Part shown: positions 2,571 through 12,748 of the stretch, in pieces
Position numbering within the stretch: the first letter of the stretch is position 1
Layout of the letters: each line of letters opens with the position of its first letter
Source: a virus
Length of the DNA: 35,055 bases
Strand: one strand, 5' to 3'
Virus record (IMG/VR): IMGVR_UViG_3300018049_000070
Location: 1-35,055 of that record
The notes under the pieces: model-generated
Told to the model about the DNA's origin: nothing
Seen by the model: only the letters and a program-made list of their open reading frames with translations
Databases searched by the model: none
Made by a program: the position numbers and the translations under genes

Positions 2571-3122
2571 CTATACGAAGTTAGCAAAAAATACTAAGCA
2601 CTTTCTCATATCATATGTAAAATCATTCATAGGTGTATGTAAAACTTGACCATTATAAACAATGAGTCTATTAGGATATGCTCCTACAACAAATTCTGGA
2701 ACACTATCACCATCAACTCCAAAAAAAGCAGTTCCTCCATCTACTGTTTGGTCGAAATATAAAACCCCAGCAATATCAAATTCATCTCTATGAATACTAG
2801 GATATTTTCCATTCCGTTTACTCTTTTTAACTTCATCATTATCAACAAACCTTAAAATAGAAAAAAAGTCTTTAATATCTATATTAAGTTGTTCTTTAAT
2901 TTTATTAAAAATAAAAAATTCTATTTCTGGATTTAAATTAGACTCATAGGTCGGAAAAGCCTGTAATCTATTACCAAAAGGTATTCCATGTGGTTGGTGT
3001 TTTGGTTTGAACATATCTTTGTATTCAAAAATCTTTTCTATTTCTAAATAGTCGTCTACATTCAACCAATTGTTAAATACAAAAAACCCACCATTTTCAA
3101 TATAATCTTTTGTATTTACCAT
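2571..3122 (-). CDS. 2-oxoglutarate/Fe(II)-dependent oxygenase-like protein
   Basis: The 183-residue product looks like a small double-stranded beta-helix dioxygenase. The iron and co-substrate ligands expected of that superfamily are visible in order: an HxD pair at H111 and D113 (SIHRDEFDIAGVLYF), a GGTAFFG strand near 129-135, a distal histidine at H162 (NGQVLHTP), and an arginine at R173, eleven residues later, suited to bind 2-oxoglutarate. The substrate cannot be read from the sequence; hydroxylation of a phage or host protein, or of another small molecule, are all open. The gene sits between gp17 and gp18, where T4 has none, and overlaps the gp17 end by seven bases (ATGGTAA). It is much more AT-rich than its neighbours: only 20 of 120 bases in 2821-2940 are G or C, which suggests recent acquisition as a moron gene. 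Confidence 0.7.
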   Translation of the reverse strand: MVNTKDYIENGGFFVFNNWLNVDDYLEIEKIFEYKDMFKPKHQPHGIPFGNRLQAFPTYESNLNPEIEFFIFNKIKEQLNIDIKDFFSILRFVDNDEVKKSKRNGKYPSIHRDEFDIAGVLYFDQTVDGGTAFFGVDGDSVPEFVVGAYPNRLIVYNGQVLHTPMNDFTYDMRKCLVFFANFV

Positions 3123-4744
3123 CTTTCTTCTTCACCACCCATTAACCAATCATATCTTCTTTCTTCAATCACTTCCATTTGTTCGACTCCATCATCTTGT
3201 ATACCAAAAGGTAGTAAGTCGTCCATTAATTCTTCTTCAGACTTTTCTCTAAGTCTTGATAATGTATTTATGTCTGTGATATCTTTGAAGTATGTTTGGT
3301 CAGATAACCAAGCAAACAATACTAAACCCATTACTAAGTCATCGTGAACACCACTCTCTGCTTCATAAGAATTACCTTTCTTACTGAAACGAGATAATTC
3401 AAATATAGTTTGGTGGTCATTTAATATTAACTGGTCTTGTTCAACTAATAATTTTAAAATAGAACAACCAACCGACTTAACTGTTTTAGTTGTTCTAATA
3501 CCTCTATCAGAACCTTTACCGAAACCACCACTTATTCTTTTGCCACTCCTTCCTTGATTCTCTGTATATAATATATTATCATATTCATAGTCATAATGTA
3601 GTAAGTCTGATACTTGCCCACCAATATCATTAATTTCAATTAGAACAGAAGCATTGTTATATAACTTTGCTACTTGATGTATAACTTCAACATATTCTAC
3701 TGGTGATAGGAAATTATCTCTAAACACACAAACTTGTTTGTATGGCATCTGTGTTACATCAATAATCTGAAATGCTGAATAGTCTAAACCCTTACCTCTA
3801 CTCACATCGACAGTCATTGTATATGTTCCATTCTCTTTTGGTTTCTCATACATCAATAGTCTACCGTCATCTTTCAATGGTGTTCTTGGCAATAATGCTT
3901 TGAGTTTAGAACCATCAATTAATGTGTTGGACGACCCTAACCATGCACATTCATACTCTTGAGCAAACTTCTGTTGGTCAAAGTCCATCGATGATAATGT
4001 TTCTTTCTTCCATTCTTCATCTCTTCCAGGAACATCAGTCCAAGGAACTTCAACATACTTGTAACCATTCGTGCCTTCTTTAGCACCCATACAAGTTTTA
4101 TAGAAATGATTTAAACCGTTCGGTGTAGAGGTAAACAACATCTTAGTTGTTGTTCCTGATGAGATTGTAGGTAGAACGGCAGCAAAGAACTCATCCCAAC
4201 CATCAACGAATGCGGTCTCATCAATATAAAGAAACGATACTGACTTACCACGAATAGAACTTGATGAGGTAGCAGCAGCAATAATCTTAGAACCATTCTC
4301 AAATTCAACAGAACCTTTGTTCCATTCAATGACACCTTGCTGTAACCATTTAGGTAATGCTTCATAAGCAATCTTAATTCTATCTAAGATTTCTCTAGCA
4401 CTATCACCTTTGTTTGCTAACAGACCAACAAGTTTATGTTCGTTGAATAATATGTAATGTAGAATAACTGCGACCGCAGTAGTTGTCTTACCTGCCTGAC
4501 GAGATGTTACAACCGCAACTCTTCGATTCTCTGTAATGAGTTTAGTGATTTCTTTTTGATAATCATACATTGTGATTGGTATGAGACCTTTGTCTACATG
4601 AACAATCTTAATGTAATTCTCTGCGAAATATATTGGGTCTTTTGAACATTTAAGAAACTCTTGTATTCGTTTCTTTGTCCAATTAAATTTTGTTCCCTTT
4701 CGTTTTAAAAGTGGGTTTCCTAGATAACCCTTATCTTCAGACAT
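3116..4744 (-). CDS. gp17: Terminase large subunit gp17
   Basis: This is the ATPase and nuclease that pumps DNA into the prohead through the portal and cuts the concatemer. In the 542-residue product the Walker A loop is SRQAGKTT (81-88), Walker B is FLYIDE (171-176) with the catalytic glutamate, and the coupling motif TSTPNG is at 205-210. The RNase H-like nuclease follows, with acidic residues in VDVS (D313), IEIND (E370 region) and HDDL (D468/D469), matching the T4 pattern of three acidic ligands. T4 gp17 is 610 residues. The ATG follows directly on the stop of the nuclease gene upstream, with no gap. Separation from gp16 by four small genes is unlike T4, where 16 and 17 overlap. Assignment is secure. 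Confidence 0.97.
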   Translation of the reverse strand: MSEDKGYLGNPLLKRKGTKFNWTKKRIQEFLKCSKDPIYFAENYIKIVHVDKGLIPITMYDYQKEITKLITENRRVAVVTSRQAGKTTTAVAVILHYILFNEHKLVGLLANKGDSAREILDRIKIAYEALPKWLQQGVIEWNKGSVEFENGSKIIAAATSSSSIRGKSVSFLYIDETAFVDGWDEFFAAVLPTISSGTTTKMLFTSTPNGLNHFYKTCMGAKEGTNGYKYVEVPWTDVPGRDEEWKKETLSSMDFDQQKFAQEYECAWLGSSNTLIDGSKLKALLPRTPLKDDGRLLMYEKPKENGTYTMTVDVSRGKGLDYSAFQIIDVTQMPYKQVCVFRDNFLSPVEYVEVIHQVAKLYNNASVLIEINDIGGQVSDLLHYDYEYDNILYTENQGRSGKRISGGFGKGSDRGIRTTKTVKSVGCSILKLLVEQDQLILNDHQTIFELSRFSKKGNSYEAESGVHDDLVMGLVLFAWLSDQTYFKDITDINTLSRLREKSEEELMDDLLPFGIQDDGVEQMEVIEERRYDWLMGGEEERW

Positions 4745-5170
4745 TTAGACACCTGCGTTAGGATCCTGATGATAAGTTTCTTCCCAAAGATGTTTAACAT
4801 TATATTGTAGTCTACCTTCTTCTTTGTTACCACCAGTGTAAGGTATCGCAAGTTTGTTATCCATTAACATTTGATTTACATCATTACCATCAATCATTAT
4901 TGTTCCAAGGACTCTACCAAACTTACCTTTCTTTTGTAGTTTAGTAGTGAGTGTAAATTTACCTTCACACTTTGCTAACTCTTCTTTAAGAAATGCTTTA
5001 GCAGCCTTACCCCAAGATTTTTCCATCAAGTTTTTTGTTCTTGACTCTGGAGTATCGATACCCATCAAACGAATTCGTTCTTTGAGTATCACCTTGAACC
5101 CTAAATCAATATAGGCGTCGATAGTATCACCATCGACAACCTTAATCAATTCACATTTATATTCATACAT
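4745..5170 (-). CDS. Staphylococcal-nuclease-like (thermonuclease) protein
   Basis: A 141-residue member of the SNase-like fold, a calcium-dependent phosphodiesterase family acting on DNA or RNA. The diagnostic elements are all present: VVDGDTIDAYID (acidic D13 and D15), RIRLMGIDTPES (R34, D39, T40, E42) and KFGRVLG (R86). R34, E42 and R86 correspond to the catalytic Arg35, Glu43 and Arg87 of the staphylococcal enzyme, so it is probably active. No signal peptide is visible, so it would act in the cytoplasm. It overlaps the upstream holin-like gene by one base (TAATG) and abuts gp17, so it is translated with the packaging motor. Host nucleic-acid breakdown or a role in DNA trimming near packaging are both possible; the sequence does not decide. 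Confidence 0.9.
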   Translation of the reverse strand: MYEYKCELIKVVDGDTIDAYIDLGFKVILKERIRLMGIDTPESRTKNLMEKSWGKAAKAFLKEELAKCEGKFTLTTKLQKKGKFGRVLGTIMIDGNDVNQMLMDNKLAIPYTGGNKEEGRLQYNVKHLWEETYHQDPNAGV

Positions 5171-5628
5171 TATGACTTACCGAGATAGAATGAACCCGCA
5201 GCAAGTATAGAAATCTTTAACCATTCGAAATGAACAATAGCATTCTCAAATCTAAAGAATTCAGTAGTTGTATGTGTATTATCAAAAAGACCTAAAATGT
5301 TTACACCTTTTTGAACCTCAACTGGAACAACAATGTCTAGTCCCCACAAAGCACCCATCATTGCCCAAGCACCCATACCTAACATAGAAAGAACAAATAT
5401 TCTTCTTGTCATTTTTGCGAATGGGTCATTACCGACTCTTTTAGCAGCAGCATCAGCCGAAGCAGTTGCGGACTCTCTGTCAGCAGCTTTTAGTTTTTGG
5501 TCTGATTCGTTCTTCTGAATTAGAAGTTTTTGTTGCTCTGCTTTATTCTTTTGAGCGGCGTCCATAAACTTGAACAAACCACCCATAGCAGCACCACCTG
5601 CCATTGTTATCAATTCAACTGGTATCAT
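5170..5628 (-). CDS. Small membrane protein, candidate holin of the three-segment type
   Basis: A 152-residue protein with three hydrophobic stretches: a glycine/alanine-rich N-terminal helix (about 4-22), a strong membrane segment RRIFVLSMLGMGAWAMMGAL (about 75-94) and a C-terminal segment WLKISILAAGSFYLG (about 136-150). A charged, alanine-rich helical region (about 23-68) joins the first two. This layout, and the short tail after a final glycine-rich helix, resemble the three-segment holins known from gene transfer agents, though the resemblance is from memory. Its ATG overlaps the stop of the spanin-like gene (ATGA), and a late promoter box lies about 31 bases upstream inside that gene. 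The neighbouring spanin candidate supports a lysis role. It could instead be a membrane protein unrelated to lysis. Confidence 0.55.
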   Translation of the reverse strand: MIPVELITMAGGAAMGGLFKFMDAAQKNKAEQQKLLIQKNESDQKLKAADRESATASADAAAKRVGNDPFAKMTRRIFVLSMLGMGAWAMMGALWGLDIVVPVEVQKGVNILGLFDNTHTTTEFFRFENAIVHFEWLKISILAAGSFYLGKS

Positions 5629-6005
5629 TGTTCTTTCCTCTGTAAATAATATCTAACTGTATTTATAAAATACATTGTCCCAGAGAGTAAAACGATTAAA
5701 ATGAGGGGTAAAGGTATAGACCATTCTTTTTCTACTTCCGTCTCTTGTTCGGTCTTTTTGACCTCTTTACGGGTCGGTTCTGGTGATATTTTTATTTTTT
5801 CGACCTTTGTAGATTTAGTGTTATTCCAGTTATGAGATGAGTCATAAAACCTCTCTTCGTCATAAGCATTTTCTGCTACAACCTTAGCAGGTTTTTCTGG
5901 TTGTTTTTTAGTTGCCTCTTGAAATATGTTTACTACAGAAAAGGCATCCATAACTGGCATACCTTGACAACCACTCAAAAATAAAACTAATAATATTCTT
6001 ACCAT
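5625..6005 (-). CDS. Candidate unimolecular spanin (lipoprotein with C-terminal membrane anchor)
   Basis: The 126-residue product has a membrane anchor at each end. The N-terminus MVRILLVLFLSGCQG contains an LSGC lipobox with the acylated cysteine at C13 and Q at +2, which should sort it to the outer membrane. The C-terminus has a transmembrane helix (about 97-114, IPLPLILIVLLSGTMYFI) followed by a basic tail (RYYLQRKEQ) suited to the cytoplasm. The middle is charged, proline-containing and hydrophilic. This is the plan of the phage T1 gp11 u-spanin, of similar length, which fuses inner and outer membranes in the last step of lysis. The signal is short (12 residues before the cysteine), but an in-frame stop three codons upstream rules out a longer start. 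It overlaps the 59-residue ORF by seven bases and the holin candidate by four. Confidence 0.7.
   Translation of the reverse strand: MVRILLVLFLSGCQGMPVMDAFSVVNIFQEATKKQPEKPAKVVAENAYDEERFYDSSHNWNNTKSTKVEKIKISPEPTRKEVKKTEQETEVEKEWSIPLPLILIVLLSGTMYFINTVRYYLQRKEQ
5660..5667 (-). promoter_or_regulatory. Internal late promoter box inside the spanin candidate
   Basis: An exact TATAAATA on the minus strand, lying within the coding sequence of the C-terminal membrane helix of the spanin candidate and about 31 bases before the start of the holin candidate. It could start a transcript for holin, nuclease and gp17. Because it overlaps coding sequence, chance occurrence is more likely than for the intergenic boxes. 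Confidence 0.5.
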
Positions 6006-6178
6006 ATACTTCTAATAATAGGAACAACTTCTTCATCAACTTGTTGTTCTATATCATTGATATAAGTTTCTTTCCACTCATCTGTTAAATCAGACTTTTG
6101 AATTAATTCTATTAATCTTTCTATCCTACCACCTTGTAGTCTTATTGTATAAATTTCACTATTCTTCAGTTTTTTCAT
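5999..6178 (-). CDS. Small hypothetical protein of 59 residues
   Basis: An ATG-started frame of 59 codons ending in TAA fills what would otherwise be a gap between gp16 and the spanin candidate. It starts MKKLKNSEIYTIRLQGGRIE, continues with an amphipathic, charged helical region containing LIELIQKSD and DEWKETYINDIEQQVDEE, and ends VVPIIRSIW. There is no signal peptide or membrane segment. Its start lies 20 bases inside the end of gp16 and its stop overlaps the next gene in the arrangement ATGGTAA, the same junction seen between gp17 and the oxygenase gene. The ribosome site is weak (AAAAG), so translation probably depends on coupling to gp16. No family is recognised. The position in a lysis-like cluster makes a small regulatory or antiholin-type role conceivable, but nothing in the sequence shows it. 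Confidence 0.6.
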   Translation of the reverse strand: MKKLKNSEIYTIRLQGGRIERLIELIQKSDLTDEWKETYINDIEQQVDEEVVPIIRSIW

Positions 6179-6584
6179 CTTTTAACATTTTCAACATCTC
6201 TGCTGTCGAACCGACAAACAAAGCATTAGTTACATTCTTAACATCACCACCCTTTGCCTCTTCTTCTTTTTGTAAGTCTTTAACTTTCTTTTGAATATTC
6301 AATAGGTCTTTGTTAGCATCCATTAATGTTTTTGATAAAGTAGCAACCACCTCAAATGCTCTTGGGTGTTCTGATACTTTTGCTAATTCGATGAGATGGT
6401 CAAGGGCATCTGTTCCCTTACCAATTACATCATAGAGATTCTTACGAGCAAAGTCGTAATCGTTTTCGATATCTTCTTCTTTGGTTTCTTTCTGAATCGC
6501 AGGTAAATCTTTTGTTTCTTCTGAAACTATCTCACCATCAATATCGAATATTTCATTTAGATTTTTTTCAAATTGTGTTGCCAT
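6159..6584 (-). CDS. gp16: Terminase small subunit gp16
   Basis: This protein recognises DNA for packaging and stimulates the gp17 motor; in T4-like phages it forms rings of helical subunits. The 141-residue product (T4 gp16 is 164) has an acidic, variable N-terminus and then the conserved core: DYDFARKNLYDVIGKGTDAL (about 43-62), SEHPRAFEVVATL and the coiled segment DANKDLLNIQKKVKDLQKEE. The HPRAxEVV stretch and the NKDLL.IQKK stretch are what I recognise from T4-type gp16. It follows gp15 after a 30-base gap. The ATG lacks a clear Shine-Dalgarno sequence: the 20 bases upstream read CCTTTATGGTATAATATAAT, and a short ATACC/GGTAT hairpin could form there. Confidence 0.9.
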   Translation of the reverse strand: MATQFEKNLNEIFDIDGEIVSEETKDLPAIQKETKEEDIENDYDFARKNLYDVIGKGTDALDHLIELAKVSEHPRAFEVVATLSKTLMDANKDLLNIQKKVKDLQKEEEAKGGDVKNVTNALFVGSTAEMLKMLKDEKTEE

Positions 6585-9540: not shown

Positions 9541-10272
9541 TTACATTGCGTCCCATTCGCAGATTCTTACCTTACCAGTTCCGCCATTTTGTCCTGGTGC
9601 ACCTTGATATGGATAACTGTTTCCTGGTTTTCCTGGATTTCCACCACCACCAGTGCCTCCATGGAACTGATGTCCACCCGCACCACCATTACCGCCACTC
9701 ATAAAGTATTCTGGCATTGACCCCTGATTCCAATAACTTCCTTCACCACCTGGCGCACCGCCGCCAGTTGGGGCTTGACCACCGCCACCGCCTCCACCTC
9801 CGGCGTGGGAGTTTCCACCTCCTTGACCACCACCTTGCCAACCCATTTGACCGCCAAATCCTCCAGAACTTGAACTTCCAAATATATATGTGCCGTTTAT
9901 AGAAGCAGTGCCAGCAACTCTATTATTTGTTCCGCCACCTACTAAATTATAAAAGGTTGAAGTTCCTCCAGCCCCACCAACGGTAACTGGTTGAGTCGCA
10001 GATATATCATCTGCAGATATTAGAGCATAAGCACCACCAGCACCACCGCCACCATACTCTTGTGTGCCGTGTCCTTGAGCACCAGTAATTCTTCCACCAC
10101 CACCTTTAACATGTGCTGATATCATAGTAGTTGCTGGGTTTTTACTGTAAGTGCCAGTTGAGTTAAAATCGAGACTCCTTGTTCGATAAATTCCACCACC
10201 ACCTTCTGCTAGAGTAGTCTGAACTGTAGCATCTGGAAACTGAATACCAGTTGATGTAAGTGTAGTAGGCAT
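9541..10272 (-). CDS. Glycine-rich receptor-binding adhesin, gp38-like architecture
   Basis: The 243-residue product begins with STGIQFPDATVQTT, the short motif common at attachment ends of phage fibre proteins. It then turns into glycine-rich segments: 44 of residues 131-230 are glycine, in runs such as AGGGGGGGG separated by short variable stretches with aromatic, Ser, Asn and His residues. Length and layout match the tip adhesin gp38 of T2/S16-type phages, where polyglycine-II helices pack into a sandwich and the loops bind the receptor. It ends TGKVRICEWDAM. It lies after the 817-residue fibre and before an assembly chaperone, the expected neighbourhood for a distal tip. It has its own late promoter and an AAGGAGAT ribosome site. 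Host-range function is inferred. Confidence 0.72.
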   Translation of the reverse strand: MPTTLTSTGIQFPDATVQTTLAEGGGGIYRTRSLDFNSTGTYSKNPATTMISAHVKGGGGRITGAQGHGTQEYGGGGAGGAYALISADDISATQPVTVGGAGGTSTFYNLVGGGTNNRVAGTASINGTYIFGSSSSGGFGGQMGWQGGGQGGGNSHAGGGGGGGGQAPTGGGAPGGEGSYWNQGSMPEYFMSGGNGGAGGHQFHGGTGGGGNPGKPGNSYPYQGAPGQNGGTGKVRICEWDAM

Positions 10273-10294
10273 AATGTAATCTCCTTAATTTCTT

Positions 10295-12748
10295 TTATTT
10301 ACTATTTATAATATTTTTTAATTCTTCTATCTGTGCTTGTTGCTCTTTAATTGCTTCAACAAGTATACCGTGAATTTGGTCATATTCAAGAATTAAATGT
10401 GAACCTTCTGTATTAAGAATTTCATGTTCAGTAACTGCTCTTGGTAAGACTTCTTGTACTTCTTGAGCAATAAGTCCAGCACCTAAACGACCATCTTTCT
10501 TATATGTGAATGTATAACCGTTTAATGCTTTAACCATATCTAAAGCACCCTCAATCTTTTCGATGTTATCTTTAAGATTTCTATCTGATACAGTTGATGA
10601 GTGAGCAACAACATTACCTTCAACATCTAAGTTACCATTGTTAGTCAATCTCATATCTTCAGCACCATCTAGATACCAACTCTGAGTTGTTGTGCCAACA
10701 GTAAAGTAATCGTTTGTATCTCTACCCATTGTCCACATATCACCTCTGACATCACTATCAAGATTAAATGTAGTAGATGATAAAGTTATACCAGAACCAC
10801 CAGTGTAAGTAGTATTAGTATCAGTTGGAGTTGCCCAAGAGAACGAACCATCACCATCAGACCTTAAGAACTGAGAAGTTGAACCGTTACCAGAAACATT
10901 CAACTCAGCAGCACCAACAGTGTTATCAGTAATCTGAGAAGCACCAACTGCCGATAGTGTAGCAAGTGAACCCAAACCAAGATTTGTTCTAGCAGTAGAT
11001 GCTGAACTCAAATCGGAAAGGTTATTAGTAGTTACTGCGTAAGAACCACTTGCTTGTTTAGCATTTAACTGAGTTTGAATAGCAGAGGTAACACCATCTA
11101 AGTATCCTAATTCAGTTGAAGTTACGGCAGATACTGCGACTTTACCAGAACCATTTGAAATTAATGCTCTTGATGCACCCAAGTTACTTGAAGTAATTGT
11201 AGAAGCACCACCATTGACAGTTGCTTGTTTACTATCAATTTGTGTTTGAATTGCTGATGTTACACCATCTAAGTATCCTAATTCAGTTGAAGTAACCGCA
11301 GATACCCCAACTTTTCCTGAACCATTTGAAATTAATGCACGGTTGGTTGTTAGGTCACTTGAAGCAATTGTAGTAGCACCACCAGTGAGTGTGTCTTGTT
11401 TTTCATCTATTTGAGTTTGAATAGCAGAGGTAACACCATCAACATAATTTAACTCAGTAGTAGTTGCTGTTACACCGTCTAGTTTATTAATCTCAGCAGT
11501 AGATGCTGTTACACCATCCATAATGTTTAATTCAGCAACAGTAGCAGTAATACCATCAATATTTGATAGGACATGGTTATGTGAGTCATCAGCAACAGTT
11601 ACTGAAATGGATACTGCGTTAGAACTGAATGAACCAGAACCTGATACATCACCAGTTAAAGTTACACTAGCAGTAGCACCCAACTTTTGACTGATGTTTG
11701 TGTTAAGGGTTGTAAATGCATTAGCATCATCATTAAGAGCTGCAGCCAACTCGTTTAGAGTATCAAGAGCAGCAGGTGCTGAATCTACAACTCCAGCAAC
11801 AGCAGTATCTACATAAGTTTTGCTAGCAGCATCAGTTCCTGCTGATACAGTATCGATACCTTGAATACGACCAGTTCCCGATAAAGTAATATCACCACCA
11901 GATACAGTTAGGTCACCACCGACCGTAAACGCACCAGAAGAACTAGAGTGATTATGCGAATCGTCAGCAACAGTTGCTGTTAATGTAGCATTACCCAAGT
12001 TGGTAAATGTAGCAGAACCACTTACATCACCAGATAGTGTTAATGTAGGGTCTGAAGTAGCAGTTGTTGTGATTGATACAGCATTAGCACTGAATGAAGC
12101 AGAACCAGTGACCGCACCAGTTAAAGTCACACTAGAAGTAGCACCTAGTTTTTGGTCTAAATTAGTATTGATAGCATCGATATCATTATCATTTGAAGAT
12201 ACCAACGAACGGATAGCGGTGTTAGTTGCTGTAATAGCAGACCATAAATTAGAATCCTCAGTCTGTAGACTTGAAATGTCTGAATCGTTAGAAGTTACTA
12301 ACGAACGGATAGCGGTGTTAGTTGATTTAAGACCAGTCCATACATCACCAATCTCAGTTGCGTTAGCAGTTGTGATAGAACGAATGGCTGTGTTAGTGGC
12401 AGTGATTGCCGACCATAAACTAGAATCTTCTGATTGTAGATTGGATATATCTGTGTCGTTAGAACTAACTAAACTTCTAATCGCAGTATTGGTTGCTATT
12501 AATCCTGACCATACATCACCTATTTCTGTAGCATTTGCTGTCGTCAAAGCACGGATTGCTGTATTGGTAGCAAGTAATTCTGTCCATGTTGCGTGGTCAC
12601 TATCACCAACAACATGTCCACCTGCGGTTACACCGTCATGGAGACGAACTTGTTTTAGTGTAGTATCTACGGACAATTCACCGACGGCACCAGTAAAGTT
12701 GTCGTTCTCGGCGGTTGTCCCTCTTCTAAATTGAACTGTAGTTGGCAT
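10295..12748 (-). CDS. Tail fibre with tropism-determinant-like N-terminus, coiled-coil repeats and S74 chaperone
   Basis: The 817-residue product starts MPTTVQFRRGTTAENDNFTG and has GELSVDTT..Q.RLHDG, the pattern of the Bordetella phage major tropism determinant N-terminal domain. Residues 55-197 hold five copies of a TNTAIR-centred repeat spaced 25, 32, 25 and 32 residues. A beta-rich part follows, with repeated VTLTGDVSGSGSFSSNAVSI-type modules and STELGYLDGVTSAIQTQ repeats. The end is an intramolecular chaperone (peptidase S74): SDRNLK carries the Ser721/Lys726 dyad for self-cleavage, followed by GAGLIAQEVQEVLP and a final helix. Cleavage would release about 97 residues after trimer folding. 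The gene has its own late promoter and a TTAGGAG ribosome site. It is probably a trimeric fibre bearing, or alternating with, the glycine-rich adhesin. Confidence 0.85.
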   Translation of the reverse strand: MPTTVQFRRGTTAENDNFTGAVGELSVDTTLKQVRLHDGVTAGGHVVGDSDHATWTELLATNTAIRALTTANATEIGDVWSGLIATNTAIRSLVSSNDTDISNLQSEDSSLWSAITATNTAIRSITTANATEIGDVWTGLKSTNTAIRSLVTSNDSDISSLQTEDSNLWSAITATNTAIRSLVSSNDNDIDAINTNLDQKLGATSSVTLTGAVTGSASFSANAVSITTTATSDPTLTLSGDVSGSATFTNLGNATLTATVADDSHNHSSSSGAFTVGGDLTVSGGDITLSGTGRIQGIDTVSAGTDAASKTYVDTAVAGVVDSAPAALDTLNELAAALNDDANAFTTLNTNISQKLGATASVTLTGDVSGSGSFSSNAVSISVTVADDSHNHVLSNIDGITATVAELNIMDGVTASTAEINKLDGVTATTTELNYVDGVTSAIQTQIDEKQDTLTGGATTIASSDLTTNRALISNGSGKVGVSAVTSTELGYLDGVTSAIQTQIDSKQATVNGGASTITSSNLGASRALISNGSGKVAVSAVTSTELGYLDGVTSAIQTQLNAKQASGSYAVTTNNLSDLSSASTARTNLGLGSLATLSAVGASQITDNTVGAAELNVSGNGSTSQFLRSDGDGSFSWATPTDTNTTYTGGSGITLSSTTFNLDSDVRGDMWTMGRDTNDYFTVGTTTQSWYLDGAEDMRLTNNGNLDVEGNVVAHSSTVSDRNLKDNIEKIEGALDMVKALNGYTFTYKKDGRLGAGLIAQEVQEVLPRAVTEHEILNTEGSHLILEYDQIHGILVEAIKEQQAQIEELKNIINSK
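10303..10310 (-). promoter_or_regulatory. T4-type late promoter box for the glycine-rich adhesin
   Basis: An exact TATAAATA on the minus strand, at the 3' end of the 817-residue fibre gene and about 30 bases before the adhesin ATG. It would transcribe the adhesin and its chaperone separately from the long fibre gene. Confidence 0.7.
12158..12586 (-). repeat. Coding repeats (TNTAIR-centred coiled-coil units) in the 817-residue fibre
   Basis: Five units with TNTAIR at residues 61, 86, 118, 143 and 175, alternating spacings of 25 and 32 residues. Long units contain SNDxDISxLQxEDSxLWSAI, short units TTANATEIGDVW. The DNA of each copy is diverged at third positions, so the repeat is kept at the protein level and old. 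Confidence 0.85.

Follow-up and report, generated by a model that had tools for sequence, protein, structure and literature searches.

Lysis genes interleaved with packaging genes are known from phage T7, which holds holin 17.5, the small terminase subunit (TerS) 18, the spanins 18.5/18.7 and the large terminase subunit (TerL) 19. Its spanin is an embedded two-component one, and the holin, of two segments, carries a type II annotation. The prototype unimolecular spanin (u-spanin) is gp11 of phage T1, a protein of 133 aa with its lipobox cysteine at Cys22, a hydrophobic segment near the C-terminus and a beta-rich periplasmic domain, the last being a feature of the T1 family that is not stated as required of every u-spanin. 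All 58 catalogued u-spanins have zero periplasmic Cys (PMC6139136). Remote homology links TeaA (ORF137) of Vibrio phage ICP1 to GTA_holin_3TM, and the protein was shown to act as a holin (PMC7182436). The releasin gp25 of phage Mu is described as N-out, C-in, with a 73-aa cytoplasmic domain (PMC9239132). In marine T4-like phages, lysis genes are annotated poorly or, for the most part, not at all, and the locus described here supplies two short genes with putative functions.

Gene order between the terminase genes

The DNA that was analysed (hereafter the window, 35,055 bases) comes from an uncultured marine T4-like phage. As judged by gp17, its nearest cultured relative is Sinorhizobium phage phiM12 (about 61% identity). 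Only gp17.2 lies between gp16 and gp17 in phiM12, and the corresponding gap of phage Melnitz also carries an insert, a different one. Four small packed genes separating gp16 from gp17 had been proposed in an earlier note on this DNA, and this anatomy is confirmed from coordinates and family matches:

6159..6584, minus strand: gp16, the terminase small subunit (TerS; phrog_445, E 3.4e-39; PF11053, E 7.1e-14)
5999..6178, minus strand: 59-aa ORF without a family or a membrane segment
5625..6005, minus strand: 126-aa lipoprotein, putative u-spanin, with a lipobox and a C-terminal TM helix
5170..5628, minus strand: hol, encoding a 152-aa protein, putative holin, with three hydrophobic segments
4745..5170, minus strand: 141-aa staphylococcal-nuclease (SNase) homologue of the thermonuclease family (PF00565, E 3.4e-13; phrog_452 endonuclease, E 3.4e-35)
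3116..4744, minus strand: gp17, the terminase large subunit (TerL; phrog_5989, E 4.8e-67; PF03237, E 5.9e-29)

The successive junctions from gp16 to the SNase gene are overlaps of 20, 7, 4 (ATGA) and 1 nt, and the SNase gene abuts gp17, so the four-gene set looks translationally coupled. Of the four genes, three lie inside the span given in the earlier note (5170–6178) and the fourth, the SNase gene, is just outside. The lipoprotein and the 152-aa protein are probably a unimolecular spanin and a holin, respectively, that is, the outer- and inner-membrane-disrupting parts of a lysis system, as judged from sequence. This reading is based on the topology plan, on the pairing of the two genes across lineages and on the holin-like gene abutting endolysins in relatives; from these we infer membrane disruption, its timing, outer-membrane sorting, late expression and the choice of endolysin. 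The placement of such a pair among packaging genes, which had been called unusual, has a precedent in T7, where holin and spanins are likewise interleaved with the small and large terminase genes, although T7 is not T4-like and differs in the spanin and holin types given above.

Neither of the other two genes of the set shows a lysis feature, and both were dismissed as candidate parts of the lysis system. The 59-aa ORF has no PHROG match at E ≤ 0.001, its tblastn matches are limited to near-identical contigs (L001, L022), and it is probably a filler particular to this lineage rather than a lysis gene. The SNase homologue shares the operon but is not a lysis protein; no SNase gene was found between hol and gp17 in L006–L008 and L010–L012. 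The gap between gp16 and the lipoprotein gene is a variable site, and some contigs (L098:6962–7681 and equivalents) carry there a 240-aa protein that looks nucleotidyltransferase-like by eye. Between gp17 and gp18, the window encodes a 183-aa protein (2571–3122) with a borderline DUF6445 match (24.1 vs 24.0 bits) and conflicting weak PHROG matches.

The lipoprotein and its pairing with hol

The window lipoprotein has a lipobox (LSGC, Cys13) assigned by a rule-based scan, an 83-residue linker without cysteine, and one C-terminal hydrophobic segment (97–115) followed by a basic tail. With 12 residues the signal sequence is short; translation cannot begin earlier, as an in-frame TAG stands three codons upstream. 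In the AF2 model the terminal helix (99–125) has pLDDT above 90; the linker is modelled at low confidence, mostly as coil with a short helix at 19–33. The lipoprotein with a C-terminal membrane anchor described from the letters alone is thus recovered, with the lipobox coming from the rule-based scan and the terminal helix from both hydropathy and AF2.

These measurements are nearly the same as those of T1 gp11. Both proteins have an outer-membrane-type lipobox, a periplasmic part of about 84 aa, no Cys from lipobox to TM, and a C-terminal TM with a basic tail. The best PHROG match and the only one of the kind "lysis" is to phrog_1804 (E 0.016), the family to which T1 gp11 is assigned (E 9.7e-45), and hhalign of the window lipoprotein against gp11 gave a probability of 60% over 20 columns; because the PHROG match and the direct profile comparison both cover the lipobox region alone, we take this likeness as a hint only. 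Unlike in T1, there is no alignable similarity to gp11 past the lipobox, the coil and single short helix modelled for the linker differ from the beta-rich domain of gp11, and the lipoprotein gene is not beside an endolysin.

The association with hol was assessed by scanning every ORF of 60 aa or more, with thresholds that we set, for the u-spanin plan. It was found in 26 of the 43 non-redundant ORFs directly upstream of hol, compared with 5 of the 1,598 others in these loci (p ~ 1e-40 by Fisher's exact test, which treats the loci as independent, though they are partly related). Even with these limits the difference is large. Every one of the 26 adjacent lipoproteins has a lipobox (rule-based), zero periplasmic Cys and a linker of 57–86 aa. 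Their +2 residues are Q, R, T, S, E, G and N but never D, and the lack of Asp at this position fits outer-membrane sorting, a location that is predicted here from sequence. The net charge after the TM is +2 to +7 in all 23 aligned lipoproteins, which fits a C-in orientation. Outside the closest contigs, the lipoproteins are 19–40% identical to the window copy, and their only invariant residues are the lipobox Cys and positions in or beside the terminal helix. Mean column identity is 31% among the lipoproteins compared with 80% in a 39-member alignment of the holin-like protein. Spanins diverge fast, and we therefore count this difference in favour of the spanin reading.

The same cluster was looked for in relatives, and hol does lie between gp16 and gp17 in 14 of 78 loci. 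In 17 of the 78 it is upstream of gp16, where among the loci examined it adjoins the neck gene gp13, with the pair upstream of gp13. In both T4-like settings hol is directly preceded by the gene of a u-spanin-plan lipoprotein, and the same pair is present in L019 and L059, in which gp16 and gp17 were not found nearby. The lipoprotein–hol pair travels together across genome positions. In the podovirus-like contigs, no lipoprotein of the u-spanin plan was found upstream of hol.

The lipoprotein might instead serve in superinfection exclusion (Cor/Imm-like), or be some other envelope lipoprotein, with its adjacency to the holin incidental. Matches to phrog_1119 (Cor) in 3 of 23 members (best E 0.0009) point in this direction, but the window protein itself matches only at E 0.64. 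The conserved C-terminal helix and positive tail are those of the u-spanin plan, and the adjacency to the holin-like gene is kept when the genome position differs. We regard an exclusion function as very unlikely.

Among the titles and abstracts of the literature found, no description of a lipoprotein–holin pair of this family is evident. We consider the family pair to be new, its kind being already known. The module is widespread in metagenomic phage contigs, and its regularity provides a rule for locating a fast-evolving spanin, namely directly upstream of the conserved holin.

The 152-aa protein and the endolysins of relatives

Relatives of the 152-aa protein were found in 78 viral contigs at 59–100% identity, most of them full-length, with a few more from later scans. 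No member of the family was found in a scan of bacterial and archaeal genomes, tblastn of the window protein in 50,697 phage records gave no match, and a search of NCBIfam gave nothing useful. Three hydrophobic segments had been noticed in this protein, and the family-averaged hydropathy does show three peaks, at 2–19 (1.36), 77–94 (1.92) and 131–148 (1.27), the outer two being marginal. In the family, loop 1 has a K+R content of 9.5 and loop 2 one of 2.4, in keeping with an N-out/C-in topology. The AF2 model is of low confidence (pLDDT 64), and a Foldseek comparison with viral models gave matches of low TM-score, to which no weight was given.

GTA_holin_3TM (PF11351) is matched by 37 of the 39 members, with a best E of 2.5e-5. 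The window copy matches at E 0.0021 and 19.0 bits, below the gathering cut-off of 24.8, and of eight records tested four matched, none over the curated cut-off. Because the scored matches stay under the cut-off, we do not file the protein as a member of this family. The three-segment plan is common to both, although the match in the window copy (profile positions 16–87 of 123) does not extend to the third segment. TeaA was tried as a homologue and rejected, with an hhalign probability of 8.8%; the two proteins belong to different PHROGs (1544 and 38283), although both have a similar distant tie to the Pfam family.

Fourteen members match phrog_38283 (best E 1.1e-8), for which no function is annotated. 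It also matches gp48 of Pelagibacter phage HTVC031P and gp50 of Methylophilales phage MEP401, both located between tail fibre and TerL and annotated as hypothetical. Direct similarity of the 152-aa protein to these is weak (E 0.06 and 5e-5, respectively); on profile evidence they are probable distant homologues. In HTVC031P a lysozyme-like gene follows right after TerL. With the holin reading, phrog_38283 gains a likely function.

In podovirus-like relatives, the gene next after hol encodes a lysozyme (PF00959, E 1.9e-12) in L036/L038/L041, L042, L043, L048, L068 and L078, and a peptidase M15 (M15_3, E 2.7e-20) in L021 and L067. The endolysin starts at the hol stop codon in most of these; the start is about 40 nt later in L042. 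The endolysins starting at the hol stop include:

L041, 2560–3108: lysozyme
L043, 5040–5588: lysozyme
L048, 1089–1631: lysozyme
L068, 2329–2889: lysozyme
L021, 1168–1701: peptidase M15
L067, 6450–6992: peptidase M15

The same putative holin is thus found beside at least two unrelated endolysins, and two unrelated enzymes at one site beside one conserved membrane protein are what is expected of a holin. This arrangement also argues against a role of the 152-aa protein outside lysis, whether in the virion or as another kind of membrane protein. The position of hol among structural genes, a PHROG of its own (38283) without an assigned function and a very weak match to the internal virion family phrog_805 (E 0.21) would agree with such a role, but hol directly abuts both endolysin types and GTA_holin_3TM is matched almost throughout the family, which makes a virion role quite unlikely.

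The six abutting endolysins listed above have N-terminal lipobox-like heads and two more Cys, and are possibly lipid-anchored or of the SAR type. Short cysteine-containing lipoproteins of 61–79 aa take the place of the endolysin at or just after the end of hol in other podovirus-like contigs (L026:4076–4276, L029:2522–2707, L030:655–894, L058:1866–2102 and L075:1178–1378); they are o-spanin-like, and some share the Cys...VCI pattern of the endolysin heads without a catalytic domain.

A search of the window and 12 related records for four endolysin families (PF00959, PF08291, PF16754 and PF13539) found only one M15_3, in L059; PF16754 gave no signal in controls, so the negative is weak for that family. 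The L059 enzyme (9913–10368, minus strand) is a peptidase M15 with a lipobox at its head; in this 219-kb record about 3.5 kb separate it from the lipoprotein–hol pair. No endolysin of the four families was found beside hol in the T4-like records searched. The cassette of the window, which the earlier note had thought possibly complete, is therefore incomplete as it stands, with no endolysin of the four families in the window and no lysis feature in the SNase homologue or the 59-aa ORF. ICP1 offers a parallel, as its annotated endolysin (ORF78) is likewise far from its holin and not adjacent.

The endolysins of relatives carry export or lipid signals of their own. Instead of a holin forming large holes, the 152-aa protein could therefore be a pinholin, or resemble a releasin, and act by setting free or activating an endolysin tethered to the membrane. 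The hydrophobic or lipobox heads suggest Sec export and not passage through holes; the first segment of the 152-aa protein is weakly hydrophobic and Gly/Ala-rich, and a long charged region follows it. On the other hand, the protein has three segments and not one or two, its similarity to GTA_holin_3TM is weak but consistent, and the export heads are known from the endolysins of relatives, not of the T4-like members. We consider a pinholin or releasin unlikely, though far from negligible.

The reading as a holin with a u-spanin is upheld by topology, by pairing in many contigs and by endolysin abutment in relatives, shorn of the notions that the cassette is complete and its placement unusual. 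Weighing against it are the sub-cut-off GTA_holin_3TM scores, the failed comparison with TeaA, the marginal outer segments and low AF2 confidence of the 152-aa protein, the short signal before Cys13 and a likeness to T1 gp11 confined to the lipobox region. Under this reading, spanin and holin would be expressed late, together with the packaging genes. The 152-aa protein, with three segments and an N-out/C-in topology, would gather in the inner membrane and permeabilise it at a set time, which would release or activate an endolysin whose gene lies elsewhere. After the wall has been cut, the spanin, anchored by its lipid to the outer membrane and by its C-terminal helix to the inner one, would disrupt the outer membrane, probably by fusing both membranes.

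A lipoprotein frame continued into hol

In a sister T4-like lineage the lipoprotein frame continues 182–206 nt into hol in the second (+2) frame, adding a tail of 59–67 aa. The overlap was found in L024, L025, L028, L034, L037, L046, L063, L065, L066 and L069–L071. Of 14 sister-lineage loci, 13 keep the second frame open, compared with 0.4 expected after synonymous shuffling. Differences at four-fold sites of hol in this lineage amount to 0.38 in the overlap compared with 0.54 in the rest of the gene, a sign of selection on the overlap; the corresponding values are 0.50 and 0.50 in the group of the window and 0.62 and 0.66 in the podovirus-like group. The sister-lineage sequences are related, and the evidence for a translated tail is for this reason good but not final.

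If translated, the tail, which spans about the first 66 hol codons, would be a cytoplasmic part of the spanin written into the gene of its holin partner, and the outer-membrane step might in this way be tied to the dosage of the holin or to contact with it. In podovirus-like relatives the endolysins that follow hol have lipoprotein-like heads, so the family may run lysis with spanin and endolysin both lipid-anchored. We offer this as a tentative speculation, one to be taken seriously but not yet favoured. In the window itself, the lipoprotein gene and hol share a simple ATGA overlap.
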